From: Clostridia bacterium
GTDB lineage: Bacteria > Bacillota > Clostridia > Christensenellales > Borkfalkiaceae
Assembly (NCBI GenBank): GCA_029054485.1
Contig: JAIDFD010000236.1
Coordinates: 1-13,793 of the forward strand
Length of the DNA stretch: 13,793 nucleotides
Direction of reading: 5' to 3'
This document shows, in pieces, positions 45 to 13,745 of this stretch. Below the pieces are notes generated by a model. It saw only the letters and a list, made by a program, of their open reading frames with translations. It searched no databases and was not told where the DNA came from. Numbering within the stretch: the first letter of the stretch is position 1; each line of letters begins with the position of its first letter. The position numbers and the translations under genes are program-made.

Positions 45-656
45 ATGACAAACCGACAGATAGCGGCGCAGGAAACAAGACGAAAAATAGTTGAAGCGGC
101 AAAAAAAATAATTTGCGAAAAAGGACTTGCAAATACTTCGGTCGATGAAATAACCGAAGCGTGCGGCGTGGCAAAAGGTTCGTTTTATACCTATTTCAAG
201 CGGAAAGAAGAAATAGTTTTTGAATTGAGCCGCGGCATGTTTGACGAAATATTGAGTAATGCCAAAAATCACAGCGGAACTTTTTTGGATAAACTGCAAA
301 AGTATATGACTGAATTTGCAAGCTACATTGAAAAATCCAGCGTCAAACTTACGCAGGAGTGGATAAAAAACGTTGTTGTGCCTGAAACAATACCAAACGG
401 ATATGAAAACAATAAACTTGAAATTGATTTAAATAATACTATCGATTTATTGCAATACGGCGTTGAAACCGGTGAACTGCAAAAAGACAGCCCTGTTACT
501 CAACTTGCTTATATAATAACTGATTTATTATACGGACAAATGCTGTGTTGGTGTATGAGCAACGGGACTTACAGTTATGAAAAAAGAACGCAGGAATTTT
601 GCAAAATGTCTTTGTATCCGCTTTTCAAAAATTATTTAATTAATAAGGAGATATAA
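45..656 (+). CDS. TetR/AcrR family transcriptional regulator
   Basis: This is a DNA-binding repressor-type protein of 203 residues, the usual TetR length. The N-terminal helix-turn-helix spans about residues 13-58, with the family pattern of an alanine-rich helix, EKGLANTSVDEIT, a GVAKGSFYTYF recognition helix and the KEEI turn. The remaining roughly 140 residues are the helical ligand and dimer domain, which gives no clue to the ligand. The ATG is preceded by GGAG at 33-36. The stop is only 2 nt before the aldo/keto reductase start, so the two are almost certainly co-transcribed and the regulator probably controls its own unit. No clear operator was found in the 44 nt available upstream. The family call is secure; the inducing ligand is unknown. 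Confidence 0.95.
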   Translation: MTNRQIAAQETRRKIVEAAKKIICEKGLANTSVDEITEACGVAKGSFYTYFKRKEEIVFELSRGMFDEILSNAKNHSGTFLDKLQKYMTEFASYIEKSSVKLTQEWIKNVVVPETIPNGYENNKLEIDLNNTIDLLQYGVETGELQKDSPVTQLAYIITDLLYGQMLCWCMSNGTYSYEKRTQEFCKMSLYPLFKNYLINKEI

Positions 657-658
657 CC

Positions 659-1501
659 ATGAAAAAAATTTTACTCAACAACGGCAATATGATGCCCGCA
701 GTCGGCATCGGTACGTTTATGATTTCTCCGAAAGACGCTGAAATCTGCGTAAGCGAGGCGTTGAAAACGGGATACAGGCTTGTAGATACCGCTAACGCTT
801 ATGTGAACGAAAGAGCAGTTGGAAGAGCAATCAAAGCTTCAGGAATAAAGAGGGAAGAAATTTTCGTAAGCACTAAGCTTTGGGCAACGGAATATCTTAA
901 TCACGATGCGGTGGAGCAAACTTTGGAAAGACTTGGTTTGGATTATGTGGACCTTTTATTTATTCATCAGCCCACCGAACATTATATGGAAGGATATAGA
1001 ATGATTGAAAAAGCCGTAAAGGAAGGTAAGGTCAAGTCAATCGGTATATCTAACTGCGAGGGAAAATATCTTGATAGCATTTTGACCGACTGTGAAATTA
1101 AGCCGCAGGTTATGCAGGCGGAAGCGCATCCGTATTTTACGCAAGCCGAACTTATGACCGAACTCAACAAACACGGTATTAAACTTATGAGTTGGTACCC
1201 GCTCGGGCATGGAGACGCAAGTCTTATAAACGAACCCGTATTTGCCGAGCTTGGTAAAAAATACGGCAAATCCCCCGTACAGATAATACTCCGCTGGCAT
1301 TTGGAAATGGGCTTTTGCGTAATTCCGGGAACAAGTAATGTAAATCATGTGAAAGACAATTTCAACGTTCAAGATTTTTCACTTACAAAAGAAGATATGG
1401 AAAAAATCGCAAAGCTCAATAAAAATAAAAGATATTATTACCGGACGGACGAAATGCTGAAATTGTTTGCATCGATGAAACCGGCATATGAAAAGAAATA
1501 A
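659..1501 (+). CDS. Aldo/keto reductase (AKR family, 2,5-diketo-D-gluconate reductase-like)
   Basis: This is a cytoplasmic NAD(P)H-dependent carbonyl reductase of 280 residues, typical for a bacterial AKR. The catalytic tetrad is visible: D43 and Y48 in DTANAYVNE, K73 in VSTKLW and H103 in LLFIHQP. The AKR motif GISNCEG (about 129-135) and the C-terminal cofactor region IPGTSNVNHVKDN (about 222-234) are also present. In that last region G-T replaces the Lys-Ser of classic NADPH-preferring members, a variant also seen in other bacterial AKRs, so cofactor preference is open. The start follows AAGGAG at 645-650, inside the last codons of tetR, and the stop-to-start gap is 2 nt. Pairing with a TetR regulator suggests induction by a reactive aldehyde, a quinone or another xenobiotic. 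The physiological substrate cannot be read from sequence. Confidence 0.93.
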   Translation: MKKILLNNGNMMPAVGIGTFMISPKDAEICVSEALKTGYRLVDTANAYVNERAVGRAIKASGIKREEIFVSTKLWATEYLNHDAVEQTLERLGLDYVDLLFIHQPTEHYMEGYRMIEKAVKEGKVKSIGISNCEGKYLDSILTDCEIKPQVMQAEAHPYFTQAELMTELNKHGIKLMSWYPLGHGDASLINEPVFAELGKKYGKSPVQIILRWHLEMGFCVIPGTSNVNHVKDNFNVQDFSLTKEDMEKIAKLNKNKRYYYRTDEMLKLFASMKPAYEKK

Positions 1502-1591
1502 AACAAGGTATAGATATACCGACGCGCCGCTGGCAAGGACAAGAAGAACCGGTAATTGCCGCAAAAAATAAAAAAAAATTTTAAAAAACTG

Positions 1592-1620
1592 TTGACAACA
1601 TAAAATAACAGTGTTATAAT
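1592..1620 (+). promoter_or_regulatory. Consensus sigma-A promoter of the tetR-ABC exporter operon
   Basis: The -35 TTGACA (1592-1597) and -10 TATAAT (1615-1620) are both perfect and are separated by exactly 17 bp, with a TG one base upstream of the -10. This should be very strong unless repressed. The 90 nt between the upstream reductase stop (1501) and this promoter are AT-rich, with a weak 6-bp hairpin (GGTATA/TATACC near 1508-1521) and no convincing terminator or gene. Confidence 0.9.
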
Positions 1621-1631
1621 AACTTTGTTAT
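1605..1631 (+). promoter_or_regulatory. Double inverted-repeat operator over the -10 of the tetR-ABC promoter
   Basis: Two 13-bp inverted repeats lie in tandem. The first is ATAACA-G-TGTTAT (1605-1617) and the second is ATAAC-TTT-GTTAT (1619-1631), with centres 14 bp apart. Together they form a 27-bp quasi-palindrome. It covers the -10 box and the expected transcription start, the classic place for a TetR-family autorepressor. The first repressor gene starts 20 bp downstream. Binding by the 1651-2271 product is inferred from position and symmetry. Confidence 0.75.
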
Positions 1632-1650
1632 TAAATAAAGGAGGCGAACC

Positions 1651-2271
1651 GTGCGGAAGAAAAACGAGCTTGCCGTAGACAAAATTTTAGAGTGCGCCAA
1701 AGACGAATTTCTTGAAAAAGGATTCGAGGGTGCTTCCATGCGCACGATTGCCGAGCGCGCAGGATATACCACTGGTATGGTTTACGGCAGATTTGCCGAC
1801 AAGAGCGAACTGTTCCGCGAGCTGGTGGAAGAGGGCGCGAACAAGCTTTTCGATTATTTTTCAAATTCGGAAGAAGATTTTGCTAAGCTTACGCCCGAAA
1901 GACAGCGCGAAGAGATGCACTCTTACGTTGAGGCAAAGCTTGACGATATGATTGACATAATCTACGACCATTTCGACGCTTTCAAGCTTATCGTGTGCAG
2001 GAGCGCGGGGAGCGGTTACGAGTACTATATAGATAAAATGATAGAGATAGAAACCGCAAGCACCGTTCGTTTTATCAACGCGCTCGACGGCGCGGGGATA
2101 AAGACAAACGAGGTTCGCGCGGATTTAAGCCATATGCTGTCCAGCGCAATGTTTAACGGCGTGTTCGAGGTCGTTGCCCACGATTTGCCCAAAGAGGAGG
2201 CGAGCGGCTATATAAAGCAAATCCACGATTTTTTCACTGCCGGCTGGCAGAAAATTTTAGGGCTTGAATAA
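1651..2271 (+). CDS. TetR/AcrR family regulator of the adjacent ABC exporter
   Basis: This TetR-type repressor has 206 residues. The helix-turn-helix lies at about residues 10-56: EFLEKGFEGASMRTIAERAG, then the recognition helix YTTGMVYGRFADKSELF. The C-terminal part is the helical ligand/dimer domain. Translation starts at a GTG preceded by AAAGGAGG (1637-1644) with a 6-nt gap, an excellent ribosome site that decides the start. The gene lies directly behind a consensus promoter whose -10 sits in a double inverted repeat, which suggests negative autoregulation. The two ABC subunits follow in the same direction after 86 nt, so exporter substrate is probably the inducer. The ligand is unknown. 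Confidence 0.95.
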   Translation: MRKKNELAVDKILECAKDEFLEKGFEGASMRTIAERAGYTTGMVYGRFADKSELFRELVEEGANKLFDYFSNSEEDFAKLTPERQREEMHSYVEAKLDDMIDIIYDHFDAFKLIVCRSAGSGYEYYIDKMIEIETASTVRFINALDGAGIKTNEVRADLSHMLSSAMFNGVFEVVAHDLPKEEASGYIKQIHDFFTAGWQKILGLE

Positions 2272-2289
2272 AGCTGACTGAAAATAAAA

Positions 2290-2307
2290 GCGGTATTAAA
2301 ATACCGC
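2290..2307. repeat. Perfect 18-bp palindrome between tetR and the ABC genes
   Basis: GCGGTATT and AATACCGC abut as a perfect palindrome 18 nt after the tetR stop. As RNA it would form a 6-bp stem with a 6-nt loop. No U-run follows on the plus strand, so it is not a normal terminator. It could be an mRNA processing or stability element, or a protein site. The 86-nt gap also holds the AGGAG ribosome site of the first ABC gene (2346-2350). Confidence 0.55.
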
Positions 2308-2357
2308 AAAATAAATATTCAAAAAATTAACCACAGTTTATATTTAGGAGACAAACA

Positions 2358-4136
2358 ATGAAAAAGAAAAAGAGCAATCTTTCCGAGCTTATGCAATTTG
2401 CGGGAAAGCATAAGTATCTTACTTACTCGTCCTGGGTGCTGTCGGTGATAAGCGCGGCGCTCGCGCTTGCGCCCTTTGTATTTATCTTCTTTATAGTGAA
2501 AGAAGTGATAGAAGTCGCGCCTGATTTTTCCGCGGCTACAAATATAGTATTCAACGGCTGGATGGCGGTTGTGTTTGCGATAGCTTCAATAATATTTTAT
2601 TTCGGCGCGCTGATGTGTTCGCACCTTTCTGCGTTCAGAATAGCGGGCAATATGCGCAAAAAGACTATGAAACACATAACCGAACTTCCGCTCGGCTTTA
2701 TCGGTGAGGCAGGCAGCGGAAAGGTGCGCCGGATAGTGAACGAAAGTAGCCGCGCAACCGAAACGTTCCTTGCGCACCAACTGCCCGATATGGCTGCCGC
2801 GGTTGCAACTCCGGTCGGTATGATTATTATGCTGTTTTTATTCGACTGGCGGTTCGGGCTTATCAGCCTCGTTCCGGTTGCACTCGGATTTTTGTGTATG
2901 TTCAAAATGGCGGGACCCTCTATGGCGGAGGATATGAAAAAATATAACGGCGCGTTAGAGGAAATGAACAATCAGGCGGTGGAATATGTGCGCGGCGTTC
3001 CCGTAGTAAAGACGTTCGGGCAGACCGTTCACTCGTTCAAAAAATTTAAGGGCTCGATTGACAACTACTACAAATTCTGCGTGTCATACTGTAAAAAGTG
3101 CCGCGGACCTATGCTTTGGTTCACGACCCTTATTAACAGCGCGTTCGCTTTTCTTATTGCGCTTGCGCTGATACTCGCGGGCGGTGAAGCGGTAACGCAG
3201 GGCGTTCTGTTAAACTTCATTTTCTACGTAATCTTTACGCCCATAATAACTACCTCGCTCACAAAAGTTATGTATATGAGCGAGAACGGAATGATTGTTG
3301 CAGACGCGCTACAACGCATACATTCCATACTCGATTTAAAGCCCTTGCCAGAAGCAAGTATAAGCGAAGTTCCCGAAGATAATTCGGTTGAGTTCAACGG
3401 CGTTATATTCCGCTATTCCAACGCGCAGACGGACGCTCTTAAAAAAGTTTCGTTTAAAATCGGCGCGGGCGAAAAGGTCGCCTTCGTAGGACCGAGCGGC
3501 GGCGGAAAAACTACGGTCGCGGGGCTTATATCCCGTTTTTGGGACGTACGCGAAGGCGCGGTTAAAATAGGCGGCGTTAACGTAAAGGATATTCGCCACG
3601 AAGAGCTTATGAACAGCGTTTCCTACGTCTTTCAGGACAGCAGACTGTTAAAGACTACTATTTTGGAAAACGTCCGCCTCGGCAATCCGCGGGCGAGCGA
3701 GCTTGAAGTTATGGAAGCACTGCAAAAGGCGCAGTGCGGCGATATTATCGCAAAACTGCCCGAAGGAGTAAATACGGTTATCGGCGCAAACGGCGTCTAT
3801 TTATCGGGCGGCGAACAGCAGAGGATAGCGATTGCGCGCGTAATGCTGAAAAAGGCGCCGATAGTCGTTTTGGACGAGGCGACCGCATTTGCCGACCCTG
3901 AAAACGAGGCGCTTGTGCAAAAGGCGTTTGACGAGCTTTCAAAGGACAAGACGGTAATTATGATTGCGCACAGACTTACCACCGTCAAAAACGCGGACAG
4001 GATTTTCGTACTCAAAGACGGACAAATCGAGGAAGAGGGCGCGCACGAAAAGCTTTTGCAGAATAAAGGCTTATACACAAAAATGTGGAAGGACTATACA
4101 ACGTCGATCAGCTGGCGTGTAGGAGGTGCAAAATGA
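2358..4136 (+). CDS. ABC exporter half-transporter, membrane plus ATPase domains (subunit 1)
   Basis: This is an inner-membrane ATP-driven exporter subunit of 592 residues, a normal length for a fused TMD-NBD half-transporter. The membrane domain has hydrophobic segments within about residues 20-310. The nucleotide-binding domain has Walker A GPSGGGKTT (378-386), Q-loop Q426, signature LSGGEQ (482-487), Walker B IVVLDE (502-507) with catalytic E507, and switch histidine H538. The site after Walker B reads ATAFAD where most relatives have ATSALD or ATASLD, a D-loop variation. AGGAG lies 7 nt before the ATG. The stop overlaps the start of the next ABC gene as ATGA, pointing to a coupled heterodimer. 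The overall look resembles the IrtAB/YbtPQ-like branch common beside TetR genes in Clostridia. Substrate and even transport direction are inferences. Confidence 0.95.
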   Translation: MKKKKSNLSELMQFAGKHKYLTYSSWVLSVISAALALAPFVFIFFIVKEVIEVAPDFSAATNIVFNGWMAVVFAIASIIFYFGALMCSHLSAFRIAGNMRKKTMKHITELPLGFIGEAGSGKVRRIVNESSRATETFLAHQLPDMAAAVATPVGMIIMLFLFDWRFGLISLVPVALGFLCMFKMAGPSMAEDMKKYNGALEEMNNQAVEYVRGVPVVKTFGQTVHSFKKFKGSIDNYYKFCVSYCKKCRGPMLWFTTLINSAFAFLIALALILAGGEAVTQGVLLNFIFYVIFTPIITTSLTKVMYMSENGMIVADALQRIHSILDLKPLPEASISEVPEDNSVEFNGVIFRYSNAQTDALKKVSFKIGAGEKVAFVGPSGGGKTTVAGLISRFWDVREGAVKIGGVNVKDIRHEELMNSVSYVFQDSRLLKTTILENVRLGNPRASELEVMEALQKAQCGDIIAKLPEGVNTVIGANGVYLSGGEQQRIAIARVMLKKAPIVVLDEATAFADPENEALVQKAFDELSKDKTVIMIAHRLTTVKNADRIFVLKDGQIEEEGAHEKLLQNKGLYTKMWKDYTTSISWRVGGAK

Positions 4137-5851
4137 TTAAAGCAATAATGAAAAAATTTGCGCTCTCGCGCGAAGGTGCAAAGGGATTTATCGGCGCGGT
4201 GATTGCCTGCGTTATCGGCGACCTTGCTTTTATGGTGCCCGTGTGCCTGTTGTACTATCTTACAAACGATTTTTTAAGCGGCGCGGTGCCGGTGAGCCAT
4301 TACTATATGTACGGCTTCGGCGCGCTTGCCTCGCTGATGCTCATTTTCTTCACGGCGTGGTGGAAGTACAACGCGACTTACTTTACAACCTATAAAGAAT
4401 CGGGCGTGCGCCGTATCCGACTTGCCGAAAAACTGAGAAAGCTTCCGCTATCTTTCTTCGGCAAAAAGGATTTGGCGGATTTGACCAACACCGTTATGAG
4501 CGACTGCGCGACAACCGAGCAGATGATGTCGCACTACGTTCCGCAGTTCTGGGGTTCGGTAATTTCAACCTGCATAATCGCAATAAGTATGTTCGTTTTC
4601 GACTGGCGGCTCGCGCTGGCGGCGCTGTGGGTATTGCCTATAACCCTTGCGATTGTGGCGGTATCTAAAAAGGCGCAAAACTATTTCACCCGCAAACAGA
4701 CCGAGGCGCAGATTTCGGTTGAGGACGGAATACAGGAGTGCCTGGATACCGTGCGCGATTTGAAGAGCAACAACGCGGAAAAGAAATATTTGCAGGGACT
4801 TAACAAAAAAATCGACCGCTTAGAGGGCAGGCACATAAAAAGCGAGCTTGGCTCGGCAATGTTCGTAGTGCCGTCGTCGATGATTTTAAAACTCGGCATT
4901 GCAAGCGTTGCGCTTGTCGGTGGAATGTTGCTCATAGGGGGCTCGCTGTCCTTAATAACTTTCTTTATGTTCCTTCTTGTAGTATCGAGAATTTACGAGC
5001 CTTTGACCGGCACTTTGCAAAATCTTGCGGCAATGAATTCGTTGCAGGTGAATATAGACAGAATTAACGATATGGAAAACACCAAAGAGCTTGGCGGCGG
5101 CAACGTGTTCAATCCCGACGGCTATGATATTGAGTTCAAAGACGTTGGCTTTGCGTACAACACGGGCGAAACCGTTTTAGACGGCGTATCTTTCACCGCA
5201 AAGCAGGGCGAGGTTACCGCGCTTATCGGCGAGAGCGGAGGCGGCAAATCCACCGCGGCAAAGCTTGCGGCAAGGTTCTGGGACGCGGATAAAGGAAGGG
5301 TCACGGTCGGCGGCGTGGACGTAAAGACCGTCGAGCCCGAAGAATTGCTCAAAGCTTATTCGATAGTTTTTCAGGACGTAACCCTTTTCAACAACACGGT
5401 TATGGAAAATATCCGTATCGGCAAACAGGGCGCGTCCGATGAGGAAGTTTTGCGCGTTGCAAAAGAGGCGCAGTGCGACGAATTCGTCAATAAGCTTCCA
5501 GACGGCTATAACACTGTTATCGGCGAAAACGGCTCAATGCTGTCGGGCGGCGAGCGGCAAAGAATTTCAATCGCGCGGGCAATGCTCAAAGACGCGCCCA
5601 TAGTAATTATGGACGAGGCAACCGCTTCTTTGGACGCCGAAAACGAAACAGAGGTACAGACCGCGCTGTCCGCGCTGATTAAAGACAAAACCGTGTTGAT
5701 TATCGCGCACCGTATGCGCACGGTTGACGGCGCGGAAAAGATTGTGGTTTTGCAGGGCGGAAAGGTTGCCGAGCAGGGCACGCCTGAAGAGCTTAAAAAG
5801 AAAAACGGCGTTTACGCCAAAATGCTTGCACTTCAAAGCCAAAACGCATAA
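4133..5851 (+). CDS. ABC exporter half-transporter (subunit 2)
   Basis: This partner half-transporter has 572 residues. The chosen start is the ATG at 4133, which overlaps the upstream stop (ATGA) and has AGGAGG at 4121-4126 with a 6-nt gap. An in-frame ATG at 4085 lies deep in the upstream gene without a ribosome site. The membrane domain covers about residues 15-300. The ATPase domain has Walker A GESGGGKST (366-374), Q414, signature LSGGER (470-475), Walker B IVIMDE (490-495) with E495, and H526. Unlike some heterodimeric exporters, neither subunit has lost the catalytic glutamate or switch histidine, so both ATP sites look competent. Both subunits carry FDWR in the middle of the membrane domain. 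Together with the tetR gene this is a regulated efflux module; the substrate is unknown. Confidence 0.95.
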   Translation: MIKAIMKKFALSREGAKGFIGAVIACVIGDLAFMVPVCLLYYLTNDFLSGAVPVSHYYMYGFGALASLMLIFFTAWWKYNATYFTTYKESGVRRIRLAEKLRKLPLSFFGKKDLADLTNTVMSDCATTEQMMSHYVPQFWGSVISTCIIAISMFVFDWRLALAALWVLPITLAIVAVSKKAQNYFTRKQTEAQISVEDGIQECLDTVRDLKSNNAEKKYLQGLNKKIDRLEGRHIKSELGSAMFVVPSSMILKLGIASVALVGGMLLIGGSLSLITFFMFLLVVSRIYEPLTGTLQNLAAMNSLQVNIDRINDMENTKELGGGNVFNPDGYDIEFKDVGFAYNTGETVLDGVSFTAKQGEVTALIGESGGGKSTAAKLAARFWDADKGRVTVGGVDVKTVEPEELLKAYSIVFQDVTLFNNTVMENIRIGKQGASDEEVLRVAKEAQCDEFVNKLPDGYNTVIGENGSMLSGGERQRISIARAMLKDAPIVIMDEATASLDAENETEVQTALSALIKDKTVLIIAHRMRTVDGAEKIVVLQGGKVAEQGTPEELKKKNGVYAKMLALQSQNA

Positions 5852-7864: not shown

Positions 7865-8473
7865 CTACTTATTTTTCAGATACTGTTTGTAAGCCTTTGT
7901 ATCGGGCTTGCCGTCTTTGATTATGTAAACCGTTTTGCCCGACTTGCGGCGGGTTCCCTCGCGCTCGGCAAAGCAGACCTCGGTGTACTTCGCTCCCCGT
8001 TCCCAAAGCTTGCAGAATGTTGCAGAAAGCCTGTTTTCAATCGCGGTAAGCGCGGTTATTTTTTTTGAAAGCGACAGCTTGCCGAAAACGCTGAAATCGA
8101 ATGCGATTTTTTCCTTATAGCCGTTCACCTGCAAATTTATCGCTGTATCATCAACGTTTAAATAAAAGGAAAGGGAGTTTCTTTCGGGGTGGAAAAGCGC
8201 GGCGTTTTCGATGCACACATCGCGCACATAGCCGTTGATAAGCTTTTCAATCGCGCCGCCGTACTTAATATTGCAAAACGCGCCGACCGCCGCACCGATA
8301 ACGATTAATACGGGTGCGGAAATTAGCGCGGTCAGCTCTAAGCTGTATATATTCTGCGTTTTTGCAACCGTGTAGCAGATAATAAAGTACGCTATAACGG
8401 CGGCGCAGAATATTGTTGCCACAAGCCCTACGGCTTCGCCTTTTTTAAGTTTTGTAACAGTTTTTTCGTCCAT
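7865..8473 (-). CDS. Hypothetical membrane protein with two N-terminal membrane segments
   Basis: This protein has 202 residues and I do not recognise its family. Two hydrophobic segments at about residues 15-37 and 46-68 form an N-terminal hairpin in the membrane. The remaining roughly 130 residues are soluble and mixed alpha/beta, with a strand-rich stretch at about 100-130 and a lysine-rich end (KAYKQYLKNK). Both termini are probably cytoplasmic, since the basic segments KLKKGE and KYGGAIEKL flank the hairpin. The ATG is preceded by GAGG (about 8 nt away), and a good promoter lies just upstream. It stands alone: convergent with the small ORF and divergent from the large surface protein. 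A shared regulatory region with the surface protein gene is possible. Confidence 0.8.
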   Translation of the reverse strand: MDEKTVTKLKKGEAVGLVATIFCAAVIAYFIICYTVAKTQNIYSLELTALISAPVLIVIGAAVGAFCNIKYGGAIEKLINGYVRDVCIENAALFHPERNSLSFYLNVDDTAINLQVNGYKEKIAFDFSVFGKLSLSKKITALTAIENRLSATFCKLWERGAKYTEVCFAEREGTRRKSGKTVYIIKDGKPDTKAYKQYLKNK

Positions 8474-8520: not shown

Positions 8521-8563
8521 GTGATTGAAAAAACGGCTGTTAAAATACAAAACCGGCGTCGAA

Positions 8564-8603
8564 AACCACAATATGTTGTGGTTGAAAAAATTGGAAACCA
8601 CAA
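8564..8603. promoter_or_regulatory. AACCACAA inverted repeat plus extra half-site between divergent promoters
   Basis: AACCACAA-TATG-TTGTGGTT (8564-8583) is a perfect inverted repeat with 8-bp arms. A third copy of AACCACAA lies at 8596-8603, exactly 32 bp (about three helical turns) from the first, on the same face. The group sits between the two divergent promoters, 25 bp upstream of the plus-strand -35, where an activator or repressor could act on either. The hexamer ACCACA recurs at 8663-8668 and as TGTGGT at 8821-8826. No U-run follows, so it is not a terminator. The binding protein is unknown. Confidence 0.55.
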
Positions 8604-8627
8604 GTTTTTATTTTTTCAAAAAAAGGG

Positions 8628-8656
8628 TTGAAATTGTCGAAACCGCGTGCTATAAT
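8628..8656 (+). promoter_or_regulatory. Promoter of the surface protein leader and gene
   Basis: -35 TTGAAA (8628-8633) and a perfect -10 TATAAT (8651-8656) are separated by 17 bp. An A/T-tract region (8605-8624) just upstream resembles an UP element. The expected start is about 8661-8663, which coincides with the first base of the long leader stem. This leaves an untranslated leader of about 240 nt before the ATG at 8904. Confidence 0.88.
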
Positions 8657-8661
8657 CACAG

Positions 8662-8882
8662 TACCACATTTTACTTATAATATTTTAGTAAGGAGCCGTT
8701 TTTTATTTTTTAAAACTTAATCTTTCTTTCATATACAAGACTACACAATTTGGCATTGTGTATCTCTTGATATTCTTGTATGTGAAAGAGTTGTAGCTTC
8801 AATGAATATTGTAAGTAAGGTGTGGTAACCGTAAGAGATACTACATAGCAGAGTGTGTCTCTTCGGAGCCACACTTTTTTTT
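8662..8882 (+). ncRNA. Structured leader RNA, candidate riboswitch/attenuator (class not recognised)
   Basis: The predicted transcript begins with a segment (8662-8685) that pairs with 8804-8827 over 24 uninterrupted positions: 20 Watson-Crick and 4 G-U pairs. Inside, 8692-8696 can pair with 8796-8800 (5 bp). A second long helix pairs 8724-8740 with 8774-8790 (17 bp, two G-U), capped by an 8-bp hairpin, TACACAAT (8742-8749) with ATTGTGTA (8755-8762). An 11-nt bulge (8763-8773) contains TCTCTT, complementary to AAGAGA at 8833-8838. The RNA then ends in an intrinsic terminator at 8852-8882. No promoter fits between the terminator and the gene, so the gene depends on readthrough. Motifs of c-di-GMP-I, SAM, TPP or lysine riboswitches were not seen. 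A 6S-like rod RNA or a DNA inversion switch are alternatives. Structure is drawn by hand, not folded. Confidence 0.65.
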
Positions 8883-8890
8883 ATGTAGTA
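8817..8890 (+). promoter_or_regulatory. Mutually exclusive antiterminator and start-region pairings
   Basis: AAGGTGTGG (8817-8825) can pair with CCACACTTT (8869-8877), the 3' arm of the terminator, over 9 positions with one G-U pair. The same bases are needed for the 3' arm of the long leader stem. AAGAGA (8833-8838) can pair either with the leader bulge (8763-8768, up to 9 bp as AAGAGATAC with GTATCTCTT at 8760-8768) or with TCTCTT (8858-8863) in the terminator. In addition TACTACATA (8839-8847) pairs perfectly with TATGTAGTA (8882-8890), the bases directly before the ribosome site AAGGGG (8891-8896). These pairings link the leader fold to both termination and access to the ribosome site. 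Confidence 0.55.
8852..8882 (+). terminator. UUCG-capped intrinsic terminator upstream of the surface protein gene
   Basis: AGTGTGTCTC (8852-8861), loop TTCG (8862-8865) and GAGCCACACT (8866-8875) form a 10-position stem with one T-C mismatch, closed by the very stable C(UUCG)G tetraloop. The T-run spans 8875-8882. It ends 21 nt before the start codon, so it must act as an attenuator for that gene or as the end of a separate RNA of about 220 nt. Confidence 0.85.
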
Positions 8891-8903
8891 AAGGGGTATT
8901 ACA

Positions 8904-11900
8904 ATGCGAAAAATAAAAACAAGAAATCTATTGACGGTTATTCTTTCCGCATTTTGCGCGGTTTTTCTATGCTCGTCTGTTATTATGCTTAATGGCATAA
9001 GTAATAAGAATGCAGATGCCCAGACCTCGGCTTATACCGTTACCGTTGACGAAATTTATAAAGGCAACGGTAAAACAACCGTTAGCGCAACTGAAAGCGT
9101 TTTCGACGGCATTAATATGCAAAAGCTGTATGCTCAAATTACGGGTGATGCGAATGCTGATTATAGTACGGTAGCCGCTTTGGCAAGCGGCGATGTTACA
9201 GCAACGACATTGAGTGCAAATGCGAAGAAAATCAATTCGAGTTATAACGATATTATTGTAAAATTTGCGGGACTTGATTGGACTGCAACACTCTTGACGA
9301 CAGATTCCAATCAAAACGTGGTGTTAACATTGTGGCTTGCTAGCCACTACATTTCCGGAGACCCTCTGGTCGATCAATGGAACACACAAGCCTCAAACAC
9401 AAACGGACCGTATCCGAACGGTATGTATGGTACGAGTTATATCCGTGCCGCAGTCTTGAATAACGGTGGTAATTACGCCGCTACTTACAATGCTACAACG
9501 TTAACGGACGTTGCACAAGACGCAGATAATACTTTTGCAAGGTTTACAATGAACAGCGTTACCGATAACGTAACACAGTTTCTGGTTAAACCTGCTAACG
9601 TAGCCAGCTCGTCTAAAAGCTCTGTTCACAGAAACGATGTGGGCATTCCATACTTTGGTAATAGTTCAGATGCAAACGTAATTGCAACGTATACGCGTTG
9701 GTTGGAAGATTTATTGTGGCTACCCAGTTCGACTGAAGTGTTGTCGGGTAATTTATGGCAAACCACTGCAACCCAGAGAACAAATACGTCAACCGGTGTT
9801 TGGACCAGGTCTGCAGGAAGCGGACACTATTATTACGCACGCGTATTGACGGCATCCGGAACAGATGCTTACTATACAACTAATTCAAGATACGGGATAC
9901 GCCCCGCGCTTTATTTGAATTTAACGCTTGCAGAAGGCAATGCTTCGGAAGCCATAAGAGTTCCGACTGTTGATAAAACGGAAGTTACTTACGACCCTTC
10001 CGCAACTCAATCTTTCACATTGGATTACGATGATACGAAAGTATCTCTTAAAAGCTTAACAGCCAAAACAACAAGCGGTGTGGATATTGCAAGTTCGACT
10101 TACTCTTTCAATCAGTGCGTTTTAAATGCTAAGGAAGCCGGAACTTATACAATGACGTTTGAAATTGTGCAGCCATCAAATCCCGATCAATTATATGAGT
10201 GGCAAGATTCAGAAACCAATTCGGACGATACCCGAACGGTTACGGTTACTATAAAGCGAAAAGAATACGGCGTGCCGACCATAAACAACAGTACGCAAAC
10301 CTACAAGGGCGCAGACTATTTGTTTGACATTGATAGTCATTTCGACCCCGGCACAATGGAAATCGCGCGACCTAACGGAATTACGGGAGCGGGCGGCGTA
10401 TATTCGGACGGATTAAGCTATGATTCAACCAATAAACAATTCACTGCAAAGAATGCGGGAACGTATAACGTAGTATTTAAACTTAAAGATACCGCTAACA
10501 CGATATGGAACGTGAACGGCGGCACAACAGTGAACGACCAGACAGTACCCATAACAATAAATAAAAAGGCGCTCACGTTTACTTACACGCCCACGAACGC
10601 AAATATGGAATGGGGCTTGGGGGACGGCGGCAGTGTAACGCTGACAACGCCGACCGTATGCACGGGCGATAGCGTAGGGCTGTACCTGTACTATGTAAAC
10701 GCGTCCGGAAACGAGTACAGACAGGGAATAGCCGGCAACGTGCTTGACGTATCCAAAATAACGAGCACAGGCGAATACACGCTGTGTGCAAAGTTAATTA
10801 CGGATAAGACGGATACGGGCTACAGCGCTGACAACGAAAACTATACCATAAGCGAAAACGACGGCGTTTATAAATTGCCTGCAAATATAGTCATAAATGC
10901 GGCAGGCGTAAATGCCAGCAGTCTTAACTGGCAGTACCGCCAGACTGACGAGATAGCTACGAAAGATTTAATAGTCGGCGGACAGCAGGTGTCGTTGCAG
11001 TATACATCGGATAAGCAGTATTTTGTAACCGCGCTCGGCAACGATTATATGGAAATATACAGTACATATAGCAACGACGGGTACGTAAACGGCTTCAAGA
11101 CGGTTGATGCGAACGGCAAAGTCGTTACAAACGGCTGCAGTGCGGTGGGCAAATATACGACCTATGTTGCAATCCACATCACCAACCCCGATTACGCATT
11201 CAAGCCTGAAAATATGCTTGATACGGACGATAAATACGGCTGGCTGAGCTATGAATGGGAAATTTCGCCGCGCGAGCTTGATTTTGCGGACGCGAAATGG
11301 GAGTACTCTTACGACAGGAACAACTGGTACGACTTTGACGCGGACGGTGACCCCGAATATACAATGTTGGGTGTTTACGTAAGGTTGAGCGATGCGTATC
11401 TCAGATCTCTTGGACTTAATGCCAACAGTGCCGATTCGGTTGAAATCATATACAACGACGGCAATAGAGACTACAACACTGGTTACGCACCGTTTAACAA
11501 AAAAGGGTCCAACACGATTACTGCCGAATTAACCATAAATGACAGTAACTATACGATAAGCAACAATACGGCAAGCAAAACCTTTGAAATTACCGCGAAA
11601 CAAATTAAAATCAAGTGGAGTTCATCTGCGCTTGAATTTGAAACGAAGGATACAACGAGCTATACCTGGGGCGTTACGATAACCAACACCGATGGTGTGG
11701 ATTACTCTGATTATATTGAGTATACTTTTGTATTCAACGACAAAGACGGTAACGAGCTTCGTCTTTCGCTTGACGAGGCGCGCGAATACTTCAAGGCTAA
11801 TGCTAGCTCTGCCGCAGAAGATCTGATAAACGGAACGGTTTACGTTTCGGTTAAAGCGGATAGCGCAAGCGATTATATTATTACCGGTGCGGACCTTTCG

Positions 11901-13745
11901 CACAGCTTTTCCGTAGGCGAGGGCAAGGATACTATTAAGGTTGAAATCGAAGGAAGCGGTAGCGAGTACAAAAAGGTTGAATTCAGTATAACGGCTACGT
12001 TCGGCAGCTCATCTTTCACACAGTATCTGGACGTTGAAATTTACTCACCTGACAGCGAACTTTTGGATACGTTTAAGGCGAGCAATGCTTCGGCAATCCG
12101 TGAATATCTGAATACTCTCGATGCGGGAAATTATACATTTGGTATAGTTGCCCCCGATGACATTGCGGCTATTTATGCCGTAAGACCCGATGTTGTAACG
12201 TTTGTAATCGCCAAACAAAATGTTGAAGCTCCTACGGTTGTAAACTCCGACCAAATAATATATAAAGCGGCTGAATACTCTATTACGGATTATTTGTCCG
12301 GTTTTAATTCCGAGCTTATGGAAATCGATGAGCTTCACAGCGACACGGCGGGCAAAACTGCAAAAGATTACACACTAACCATAAATTTACTTGATAAAAA
12401 CAACTACAAGTTTGTTTATCCGGAGACTTCGGCAACTCCTGCAAAGATACAAGTCAGAACGGCTTTGACGGACGGCGGGTCCGGTTCAACAAATATGAGC
12501 ATTGCTTCGGACGGGTCATATGTGGATATTATCTGGACGATACAGAAATTTGTGATTACGGACAGTATGTTCAGTACGACTACCGGCGAACTTAAACTGC
12601 CCGCCCAGTTTAACGATTTACTGGCAAACGATTTGTTGCAAGTCGGTTATCAATACTATGCAGATAAAACGAGCAATGAACCCATAACCGAACTCAAAGC
12701 GGGCGAAACCTATTACGTTGTCGCAAGTCTTGGCGGCGAGAGTGCAAATAACTTTGTGTTTGAAAACCCGAGTCTGACTTCGGAAACCACGTCGCAGAGA
12801 GTAACGTTTAAGTCTCCCCAGTCAGGTTTCAGTGCAGTGCTTGGAAATCTTAAAAATTTTACAACCAAAACTTGGCTTGGGCTTCCTATATGGGCGTGGC
12901 TTTTAATCGGTTTATTCCTGCTGATACTTCTTATAATCATAATTGCGGTTGCATGCAAACGCAGGAAGAGCAAGGAAGAGAGAGCGGAAGCGAAAGCGCG
13001 CCGCGAGGAAGAAAGACAGTTACAGCGTGAAAAGCTCGAAGCGGAGCGTGAGCTTGCGAAAGCAAAGCAGGAAGCCGAGCTTGAGAAGATACGCGCGCAG
13101 GCGGGAATGGGAATGGTTGGCGCAGGTATGGCTACAATGGCTATGCAACAGCCCGCTCAGCAGGCACCCGCACAGCAGCCCGCTCAACAGCCGCAGATGC
13201 AGTCGCAGAGCGTACAGCAAATGCCTATGCAAATGCCTATGCAGATGCCTATGCAACAGCCCGTACAGGCGGCGCAGACTTCCGGCGGTATGAACGCAAG
13301 CGAAATGATGGCGATGATGTTTGCCCAGCTTGCGGGAATGAAAGCGGATAACGCGGATAAGGAAATTGCGGCTTTGAAGTCGGATAAGGAAATTACCGCG
13401 CTGAAAACCGAAATAGAAATTATGAAGCTGAAAATGGAACAGCTTAAAGAAAGCAAGTCCGTGCAGTCGGTCGACGGCAAGCCCGAACTTACGCCCGAAT
13501 TCCTCGGTGCGGTGATAGCTTCCGCAATGCGCAGTAACGGCGTTCTGCCCCAGACCGCGCCCGTAGCCGAGCTCCCCCAGCAGATATCCGAAAATGCGAG
13601 CGTGAACTGTGAGTATCCGCCCGATGCTGTGATTACGACCACAACGACTGTTGATACCACAACCAAACCTCAGCCGAGAAGGACGGAGCGCGGTGCAAAG
13701 GACGAATTTATGGACGTAGACGGTTTCTACGACAAGTTCGAGTAA
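8904..13745 (+). CDS. Large surface protein: DUF6273-like domain, Ig-like repeats, membrane anchor, cytoplasmic tail
   Basis: This protein has 1613 residues. A signal peptide (about 1-39, cleavage likely after ADA) leads to an extracellular part of about 1290 residues. Residues about 115-342 resemble DUF6273: WLPSSTEV, then GVWTRSAGSGHYYYARV and the ending YGIRPALYLNL. Ig-like/MBG-like beta modules follow. The module near 456-556 (VPTINNSTQTYKGADY, ending VPITINKK) recurs near 1108-1216 (APTVVNSDQIIYKAAEY, ending WTIQKF). A single membrane segment (about 1328-1350) is followed by CKRRK, placing about 263 residues inside the cell. That tail has a charged coiled coil (about 1352-1398), a Q/P/M-rich stretch (1402-1455), a second coiled coil (about 1483-1518) and an acidic-aromatic end (DEFMDVDGFYDKFE). 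There is no LPXTG signal. The ATG follows AAGGGG with a 7-nt gap. Function is unknown; adhesion or envelope sensing linked to a cytoplasmic partner is inference. Confidence 0.9.
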   Translation: MRKIKTRNLLTVILSAFCAVFLCSSVIMLNGISNKNADAQTSAYTVTVDEIYKGNGKTTVSATESVFDGINMQKLYAQITGDANADYSTVAALASGDVTATTLSANAKKINSSYNDIIVKFAGLDWTATLLTTDSNQNVVLTLWLASHYISGDPLVDQWNTQASNTNGPYPNGMYGTSYIRAAVLNNGGNYAATYNATTLTDVAQDADNTFARFTMNSVTDNVTQFLVKPANVASSSKSSVHRNDVGIPYFGNSSDANVIATYTRWLEDLLWLPSSTEVLSGNLWQTTATQRTNTSTGVWTRSAGSGHYYYARVLTASGTDAYYTTNSRYGIRPALYLNLTLAEGNASEAIRVPTVDKTEVTYDPSATQSFTLDYDDTKVSLKSLTAKTTSGVDIASSTYSFNQCVLNAKEAGTYTMTFEIVQPSNPDQLYEWQDSETNSDDTRTVTVTIKRKEYGVPTINNSTQTYKGADYLFDIDSHFDPGTMEIARPNGITGAGGVYSDGLSYDSTNKQFTAKNAGTYNVVFKLKDTANTIWNVNGGTTVNDQTVPITINKKALTFTYTPTNANMEWGLGDGGSVTLTTPTVCTGDSVGLYLYYVNASGNEYRQGIAGNVLDVSKITSTGEYTLCAKLITDKTDTGYSADNENYTISENDGVYKLPANIVINAAGVNASSLNWQYRQTDEIATKDLIVGGQQVSLQYTSDKQYFVTALGNDYMEIYSTYSNDGYVNGFKTVDANGKVVTNGCSAVGKYTTYVAIHITNPDYAFKPENMLDTDDKYGWLSYEWEISPRELDFADAKWEYSYDRNNWYDFDADGDPEYTMLGVYVRLSDAYLRSLGLNANSADSVEIIYNDGNRDYNTGYAPFNKKGSNTITAELTINDSNYTISNNTASKTFEITAKQIKIKWSSSALEFETKDTTSYTWGVTITNTDGVDYSDYIEYTFVFNDKDGNELRLSLDEAREYFKANASSAAEDLINGTVYVSVKADSASDYIITGADLSHSFSVGEGKDTIKVEIEGSGSEYKKVEFSITATFGSSSFTQYLDVEIYSPDSELLDTFKASNASAIREYLNTLDAGNYTFGIVAPDDIAAIYAVRPDVVTFVIAKQNVEAPTVVNSDQIIYKAAEYSITDYLSGFNSELMEIDELHSDTAGKTAKDYTLTINLLDKNNYKFVYPETSATPAKIQVRTALTDGGSGSTNMSIASDGSYVDIIWTIQKFVITDSMFSTTTGELKLPAQFNDLLANDLLQVGYQYYADKTSNEPITELKAGETYYVVASLGGESANNFVFENPSLTSETTSQRVTFKSPQSGFSAVLGNLKNFTTKTWLGLPIWAWLLIGLFLLILLIIIIAVACKRRKSKEERAEAKARREEERQLQREKLEAERELAKAKQEAELEKIRAQAGMGMVGAGMATMAMQQPAQQAPAQQPAQQPQMQSQSVQQMPMQMPMQMPMQQPVQAAQTSGGMNASEMMAMMFAQLAGMKADNADKEIAALKSDKEITALKTEIEIMKLKMEQLKESKSVQSVDGKPELTPEFLGAVIASAMRSNGVLPQTAPVAELPQQISENASVNCEYPPDAVITTTTTVDTTTKPQPRRTERGAKDEFMDVDGFYDKFE
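13221..13256 (+). repeat. Three 12-bp tandem repeats encoding MPMQ units
   Basis: ATGCCTATGCAA occurs three times in a row, the middle copy ending CAG. It encodes MPMQMPMQMPMQ inside the cytoplasmic Q/P/M-rich linker of the surface protein. The near-identity at DNA level suggests recent slippage expansion, and the copy number keeps the frame whatever its value. Confidence 0.9.
13356..13409 (+). repeat. Two diverged 27-bp tandem units in the second coiled coil
   Basis: The segments 13356-13382 and 13383-13409 both begin GATAAGGAAATT and encode DKEIAALKS and DKEITALKT. This is a 9-residue duplication within the cytoplasmic coiled coil. The second halves have diverged at synonymous and conservative positions, so this is older than the MPMQ repeat. 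Confidence 0.7.

Follow-up and report, generated by a model that had tools for sequence, protein, structure and literature searches.

The window analysed here, a DNA stretch of 13,793 nt, contains on its plus strand two TetR-like ORFs followed by two adjacent ABC exporter-like ORFs (45–5851 as a whole, with the exporter pair at 2358–5851; judged from their translations), and on its minus strand a gene for a MATE family transporter (PF01554; 6103–7518). A predicted leader RNA (8662–8882) and its promoter are situated between a divergently oriented gene (7865–8473, minus strand) and a 1613-codon gene (8904–13745, plus strand). The product of the latter has an N-terminal signal-like sequence, a C-terminal membrane segment (encoded from about position 12873) and a charged tail, and its only Pfam match was a sub-threshold one to DUF6273. 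The same gene also encodes a low-complexity repeat of the MPMQMPMQ type (approximately 13215–13281), located beyond the membrane segment.

As shown in Table 1, the leader is preceded by a promoter whose −10 hexamer ends 5 nt upstream of the base of the first stem (P1). Further upstream (8563–8622) we observed the palindrome AACCACAATATGTTGTGGTT together with the repeat ACCACAAGTTTTTATTTTTT. Sequence resembling this region also precedes the copies of the element in some genomes (L010, L015, L100), and it is possible that the palindrome and the repeat form a shared operator.

Table 1. Features of the leader RNA, its promoter and the downstream gene
Feature	Position	Strand	Basis
Promoter: −35 TTGAAA (8628–8633), 17-nt spacer, −10 TATAAT (8651–8656)	8628–8656	+	sequence
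P1, 5' arm; first base is the expected transcription start	8662–8685	+	fold; P1 covariation
5-bp inner helix, 5' arm with 3' arm	8692–8696 with 8796–8800	+	fold of the window copy only
Motif AACUUAAU upstream of P2	8714–8721	+	sequence; similar motif between P1 and P2 in compact copies
P2, 5' arm (partner 8774–8790)	8724–8740	+	window fold; helix at the same place, of other sequence, in the folds of many relatives
P3, apical hairpin, loop UUGGC (8750–8754)	8742–8762	+	fold; GGCA columns 82–95% identical in alignment A5
Pseudoknot, 5' strand GUAUCUCUU	8760–8768	+	complementary to 8833–8841, −9.9 kcal/mol; covaries
P2, 3' arm	8774–8790	+	fold
P1, 3' arm (P1'), ending GGUGUGGUA	8804–8827	+	fold; covariation
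Switch strand (tail) ACCGUAAGAGAUAC	8828–8841	+	pairs with 8760–8768 or with 8855–8866; covariation
Outer stem 8839–8848/8881–8890 around terminator and U run	8839–8890	+	window fold; stems of relatives by eye
Intrinsic terminator: UUCG-capped hairpin core (8853–8874) and U8 (8875–8882)	8853–8882	+	fold; −9.2 kcal/mol
Antiterminator partner GUGUCUCUUCGG, within terminator 5' arm and loop	8855–8866	+	antiterminator hairpin −15.8 kcal/mol; covaries with the tail
Downstream gene, 1613-aa exported protein, AAAGGGG upstream	8904–13745	+	ORF

Folding of 8655–8903 gave −82.8 kcal/mol, compared with a mean of −47.75 kcal/mol (sd 4.29) for 200 dinucleotide shuffles (z = −8.17), none of which was as stable as the native sequence. 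The fold reproduced the long stem, the inner 17-bp helix and the 8-bp apical hairpin that had been proposed in a sequence-only reading of this region. P1 consists of 24 uninterrupted pairs, four of which are U·G, so that all of its non-Watson-Crick positions are G-U pairs, as that reading had stated. P2 is predicted to comprise 17 pairs (the covariation support described below rests on other helices), and P3 comprises eight (8742–8749/8755–8762). The 5' strand of the pseudoknot lies mostly within the bulge on the 3' side of the rod (8763–8768), its first three nucleotides (8760–8762) being also part of P3. At the other end of the RNA, the UUCG-capped hairpin at which it had been proposed to terminate runs directly into eight U residues. 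The window fold also contains an outer stem (UACUACAUAG/UUAUGUAGUA), which stops just 5' of the Shine–Dalgarno (SD) sequence; counterparts recognised by eye in relatives (including L007–L009, L105, L109 and L212) read GUGCGGU/ACCGCAC or are GCAGGG/CCCUGC-like. Such a stem may structure or protect the read-through mRNA.

Distribution and shared anatomy of the RNA family

A BLAST search of the window's own genome with the leader identified four further copies of its 3' core. Combined with the six matches of a covariance model built from 18 compact copies (R1), these give a total of seven loci in this genome. The pattern GTGTGGTRACCNNNAGAGATRY was detected at 58 loci in a collection of named genomes, 56 of them in Clostridia MAGs; the other two (L045, Lentisphaeraceae; L055, Gammaproteobacteria) look like chance occurrences and were rejected. 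Many of the MAGs carrying pattern loci bear isolate names of the 'Lapin-' type, which suggests a rabbit origin.

Within the genus, R1 matched 38 of 93 genomes, with at most nine matches in a single genome. Weak R1 hits led to the recognition of a shorter, more divergent subfamily, and a second covariance model (R2) was built from 22 of its copies. R2 matched 45 of the 93 genomes (49 for the union of both models), as well as 35 of 297 genomes in the order sample (10 families) and 45 of 391 in the class sample (14 further families), the 45 of 391 being possibly untypical of other draws. The only match among the 398 genomes of the phylum sample, which includes at least 14 same-class genomes without a match, was the window's own genome. 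The core pattern did not occur in viral contigs, and the window copy had no match in phages or plasmids. The occurrence of the element as a multi-copy family across many bacterial families, together with the pseudoknot and the antiterminator described below, goes beyond the sequence-only reading.

At two loci (L243 and L268) copies were found in tandem, the second one (12 of 12 P1 pairs) beginning 103 and 91 nt, respectively, past the first tail. Promoter-and-P1-like sequence was also noticed by eye downstream of the copies in L207 and L218, neither of which passed the tandem-copy test.

In a search of the whole window against Rfam 15, no family attained its gathering score, in line with the initial impression that it belongs to no recognised class. 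Around the element, four matches appeared at E ≤ 10 (E 3.3–5.6), all far below the cut-offs. Over the element in 37 homologous loci (20 searched at gathering score and 17 at E ≤ 0.5) no family reached its cut-off; the only matches above cut-off in these loci (tRNA, tmRNA and permuted tmRNA) were located elsewhere. Of the sub-threshold calls in these loci, one (Phe_leader, 32.9 bits versus a cut-off of 55) fell on the L202 copy and was likewise rejected. Among the papers listed by full-text searches of the open literature none describes this RNA class, and it is possible that it has an unnamed entry in supplementary tables or among the 224 candidate RNAs catalogued in 2017. None of six terms looked up in PMC11109978 and PMC8632094 occurred there. 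Fremin and Bhatt (2021; PMC8040213) provide a large list of unnamed candidate structured RNAs of the human microbiome that could contain members of the family, and the text passages of that paper covered here name no such class.

The anatomy of the family was drawn from the inspected sequences of many of the matches. From the base of P1 onwards, the elements form a P1–P2–P3 rod that bears a bulge on its 3' side; the tail, the terminator and the start codon follow in this order. The long P1 is followed by a 5'-side loop (usually AAUA) and by P2, which is variable in length. The P3 loop bears GGCA or GGUA, and the 3' bulge after P3 carries GUAUCUCUU or its variants; GGCA and AUA are the conserved loop positions across copies. 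The tail that follows P1' reads ACCGUAAGAGAUAC in the window and ACAAUCGGAGAUAC in many other copies. The start codon, preceded by an SD sequence, is located at a median distance of 63 nt from the tail (50–75 nt in 94 of 141 copies). The insert of the window copy is longer than that of the compact copies: its P1 start is separated from GUGUGG by 158 nt, a distance of 91–111 nt among the 20 shortest.

The best −10 hexamer matched at least four of six positions in 184 of 188 distinct promoters, and 158 of these hexamers end exactly 5 nt before P1. A control window placed further upstream also contained a hexamer of this quality in 156 of 188 cases, and thus it is the sharp spacing, and not the presence of the hexamer, that is informative. 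Because of this spacing (158/188), it is very likely that the RNA of the related copies starts at the base of P1, as had been supposed for the window.

Covariation of competing structures

P1 was tested at a fixed register, because the MAFFT alignment A1 had misplaced the variable stems. The test, run in Python, used the 57 of 64 distinct copies of subfamily 1 for which the 5' end was found. At P1 positions 10–18, 469 of 513 cells pair, compared with 243.5 (sd 12, maximum 275) in 1000 permutations of the 3' arms. An earlier count, in which 254 of 281 elements had at least 10 of 12 P1 pairs (the filter excluded 27 of the 281, i.e. short, antisense or wrongly bounded matches), was discarded as proof, because with an optimised register swapped arms also reach at least 10 pairs in 54.5% of cases. 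At the adjacent P1 positions 8 and 9 (8669–8670/8819–8820), U·G pairs occur in all 57 and in 53 of these subfamily-1 copies, respectively. It had been argued that four random mismatches would rarely all be wobble-compatible and that selection on RNA pairing is therefore more likely than decay of a DNA repeat; this reasoning is partly superseded, since two of the wobbles are themselves conserved, and it is the compensatory changes in other copies that prove the RNA pairing. GGUGUGG of P1' could alternatively pair with the 3' arm of the terminator.

Alignment A5, fitted with R2, contained 111 rows, including 11 antisense matches of this palindromic element that were kept in. Double-sided changes were found at all 21 tested pairs, and 91.9% of the cells pair, versus 78.1% in shuffled and 26–64% in slid controls. 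The highest value (97.5%) was recorded for P1, which is part of the model, so that the alignment leans towards it. For the two P3 pairs kept in the count (three others share columns with the pseudoknot and were omitted), only 73.9% of the tested cells pair, which counts against the model. The two pseudoknot helices (seven pairs) lie outside the search model, and 78.9% and 89.3% of their cells pair, with compensatory changes at each. For example, GUAUCUC/GAGAUAC is replaced by GUACCUC/GAGGUAC in L104, GUGUUUC/GAAACAC in L124, GCGUCUC/GAGACGC in L190 and CUUCUC/GAGAAG in L183. The predicted leader structure is backed by this covariation.

The tail has two mutually exclusive partners, i.e. the 3' bulge (pseudoknot) and the terminator hairpin in its 5' arm and loop (antiterminator). 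Both pairings were examined by permutation (145 usable and 114 distinct tails, with some antisense rows remaining, including L104 twice). Tails combined with their own bulges gave a mean of −12.49 kcal/mol, compared with −9.05 kcal/mol for swapped tails, and tails combined with their own downstream regions gave −18.59 kcal/mol, compared with −12.02 kcal/mol for swapped regions; in neither test did any of 2000 permutations match the native energy. The check for covariation in homologous leaders, called for by the sequence-only reading, thus gave a positive result in permutation or shuffle tests for P1, the pseudoknot and the antiterminator alike.

A terminator-like hairpin followed by a U run is present in 149 of 158 copies examined, and in 148 of these 149 it is overlapped by the partner of the tail. 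As judged from these comparisons, the leader carries a mutually exclusive terminator/antiterminator pair coupled to the putative aptamer. Only in 96 of 149 copies does the stability of the antiterminator equal or exceed that of the terminator (medians −16.4 and −15.7 kcal/mol, respectively), which leaves the default state of the switch uncertain. The corresponding energies in the window are −9.9 kcal/mol for the pseudoknot, −15.8 for the antiterminator and −9.2 to −12.1 for the terminator. A further point against the proposed switch is that the pseudoknot strand sits at a considerable distance along the rod, whose length varies, so that the rod must bend to bring this strand to the tail.

We also considered, in 141 copies, whether the P1' tail pairs with the beginning of the coding region. 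At least 11 bp were reached in 11 of them, versus 3.7% of swapped pairs, and the means were nearly equal (7.65 and 7.52), which rules out this pairing as a general rule. In a minority of copies (L271, L121, L104, L124, L190 and also L140) we observed complementarity of 13–15 nt between the first ten codons and P1' plus tail, although in L190 the complementary segment falls on the SD sequence and not on the first codons. This complement tracks the changes in P1 (CCACGC in L121, GUCACCACAC in L271 and L140), with L190 unlike the others. In these copies the complementarity may add a translational level of control.

Downstream genes and interpretation

Signal-peptide-like sequences were found in 104 of 141 ORFs downstream of the RNA (61 with a lipobox), compared with 24 of 120 control ORFs (8 with a lipobox; Fisher p = 1.4e-18), the controls being taken only from L023–L080 and the window under a slightly different selection rule. 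This count covers 141 of 251 distinct predicted ORFs, scored with a home-made rule based on hydrophobicity; a few antisense rows were kept, and the choice of downstream ORFs favours ATG with an SD sequence. By the same rule 37 of the 141 ORFs do not look exported, and in the subset from other orders 23 of 36 do, with a lipobox in only one. Pfam analysis of 91 downstream proteins revealed BspA-type leucine-rich repeats (24), zinc ribbons (4), DUF6273 (4), MBG (2), the N-terminal domain of copper amine oxidase (2), GDSL lipase (2), SLH (1) and SPFH (1). The predicted regulon is thus mostly one of surface and export functions, with no metabolic pathway, and it does not name the ligand, because export, and not a pathway, is what these genes have in common.

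We propose, with a probability of roughly 0.72, that the region is a member of an apparently undescribed class of riboswitch-like transcription attenuators, in which an aptamer fold and a tail switch between terminator and antiterminator. The attenuator reading is supported by the covarying pseudoknot and antiterminator that compete for a single tail, by the frequency of terminators and by the SD-bearing genes downstream. According to the sequence comparison, RNA synthesis would begin at the base of P1, and the P1–P2–P3 rod would present, in its 3' bulge, a strand complementary to the tail; a second complement of the tail is found in the terminator's 5' arm, and compensatory changes maintain the two pairings. 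Since pairing of the tail with the aptamer excludes it from the antiterminator, folding of the aptamer would free the terminator and shut the gene: the folded aptamer and the pseudoknot would hold the tail, the terminator would form and transcription would stop. With the aptamer unfolded, the tail would make the antiterminator and the surface-protein gene would be transcribed. To judge from this wiring, the switch is probably ON by default and OFF once the aptamer folds. The folded aptamer may be stabilised by a signal inside the cell to which many genes for exported proteins respond, a small molecule or an ion being the most likely candidate.

A broader reading, to which we assign even odds, is that this RNA is a new riboswitch class, with matches in 24 families of one class (Clostridia, going by the named relatives), and acts as a master control of the cell surface at the RNA level in response to one cellular signal, possibly a novel second messenger or a precursor of the envelope. 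Lipoproteins and BspA-type leucine-rich-repeat, S-layer, MBG and zinc-ribbon proteins would all be subject to it, with up to nine or more copies of the RNA per genome. A riboswitch-like class of this abundance, with a covarying switch and no Rfam 15 entry, would be an orphan of considerable interest. The regulon of exported proteins, which do not belong to one metabolic pathway, points to a global signal and offers a way into the surface biology of gut Clostridia, most of which are uncultured, and the mapped pseudoknot and antiterminator allow ligand screens and termination assays to be designed directly.

The main rival is a protein-dependent attenuator, in which a conserved RNA-binding protein would bind the rod (at the apical GGCA loop and the AAUA loop) and select the terminator or the antiterminator. 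Conservation of the GGCA and AUA loop positions is compatible with such a protein, and up to nine matches per genome would suit a trans-acting regulator. However, an extended conserved structure whose pseudoknot overlaps the expression platform is more often seen in riboswitches, and we consider a protein-dependent mechanism unlikely.

The sequence-only reading had left a choice between a riboswitch-type attenuator and a stand-alone structured RNA. The former is favoured by the present results; the latter, i.e. an sRNA that ends at the terminator, with the gene expressed by read-through or from another promoter, is not, and seems highly improbable. Such an sRNA would account for transcription from its own promoter and for the prevalence of terminator-like hairpins, but not for the SD-preceded start codons at a median of 63 nt from the tail or for the export signals that the downstream ORFs share, and a covarying antiterminator would be useless to an RNA that merely ends there.

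Still less credence is due to an inverted-repeat DNA element (MITE-like or a recombination site) that folds as RNA by chance. Several copies per genome, some of them at contig ends, are what such an element would leave, but the arms vary between copies instead of being shared as in MITEs, and their pairing is kept by compensatory change. The conserved U·G pairs, the sharp promoter spacing and the negative searches of phages, plasmids and viral contigs also oppose it, and the covariation makes it very unlikely, unless cruciform DNA is itself under selection.

Relation to known regulatory RNAs

In Clostridia, c-di-GMP-I and c-di-GMP-II riboswitches govern surface and adhesion genes, so that surface-protein regulons are typical for this messenger. 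A c-di-GMP riboswitch of divergent sequence can nevertheless be practically dismissed, since the element has no Rfam covariance match to either class, 26 of the 49 genomes of the genus that carry the RNA yielded no GGDEF (including that of the window, which is 97% complete; some carriers are incomplete), and GGDEF is not associated with the RNA (23 of 49 carriers versus 17 of 44 non-carriers, p = 0.53), which makes c-di-GMP unlikely as the ligand.

The segment UGGUAACCG bears what we take to be a superficial resemblance to the T-box sequence, and T-box leaders likewise employ a terminator/antiterminator pair. Their identity lies in an invariant UGGN bulge and an RF00230 score. Here, in contrast, UGGU is part of a P1 arm and varies together with its partner (e.g. 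UCGCA, UGACA), no match to RF00230 was obtained, and the downstream products seen are not enzymes of aminoacylation or amino-acid metabolism; assignment to the T-box class was therefore rejected.

The closest parallels are pseudoknotted riboswitches of the terminator type, such as preQ1, fluoride, ZTP and others. The predicted RNA resembles them in being a 5' leader, in sharing a pseudoknot strand with the expression platform and in opposing a terminator to an antiterminator. It differs from them, apart from having no Rfam 15 match, in its P1–P2–P3 rod, in the pairing of the 3' bulge with a tail situated beyond P1, and in its regulon of exported proteins.
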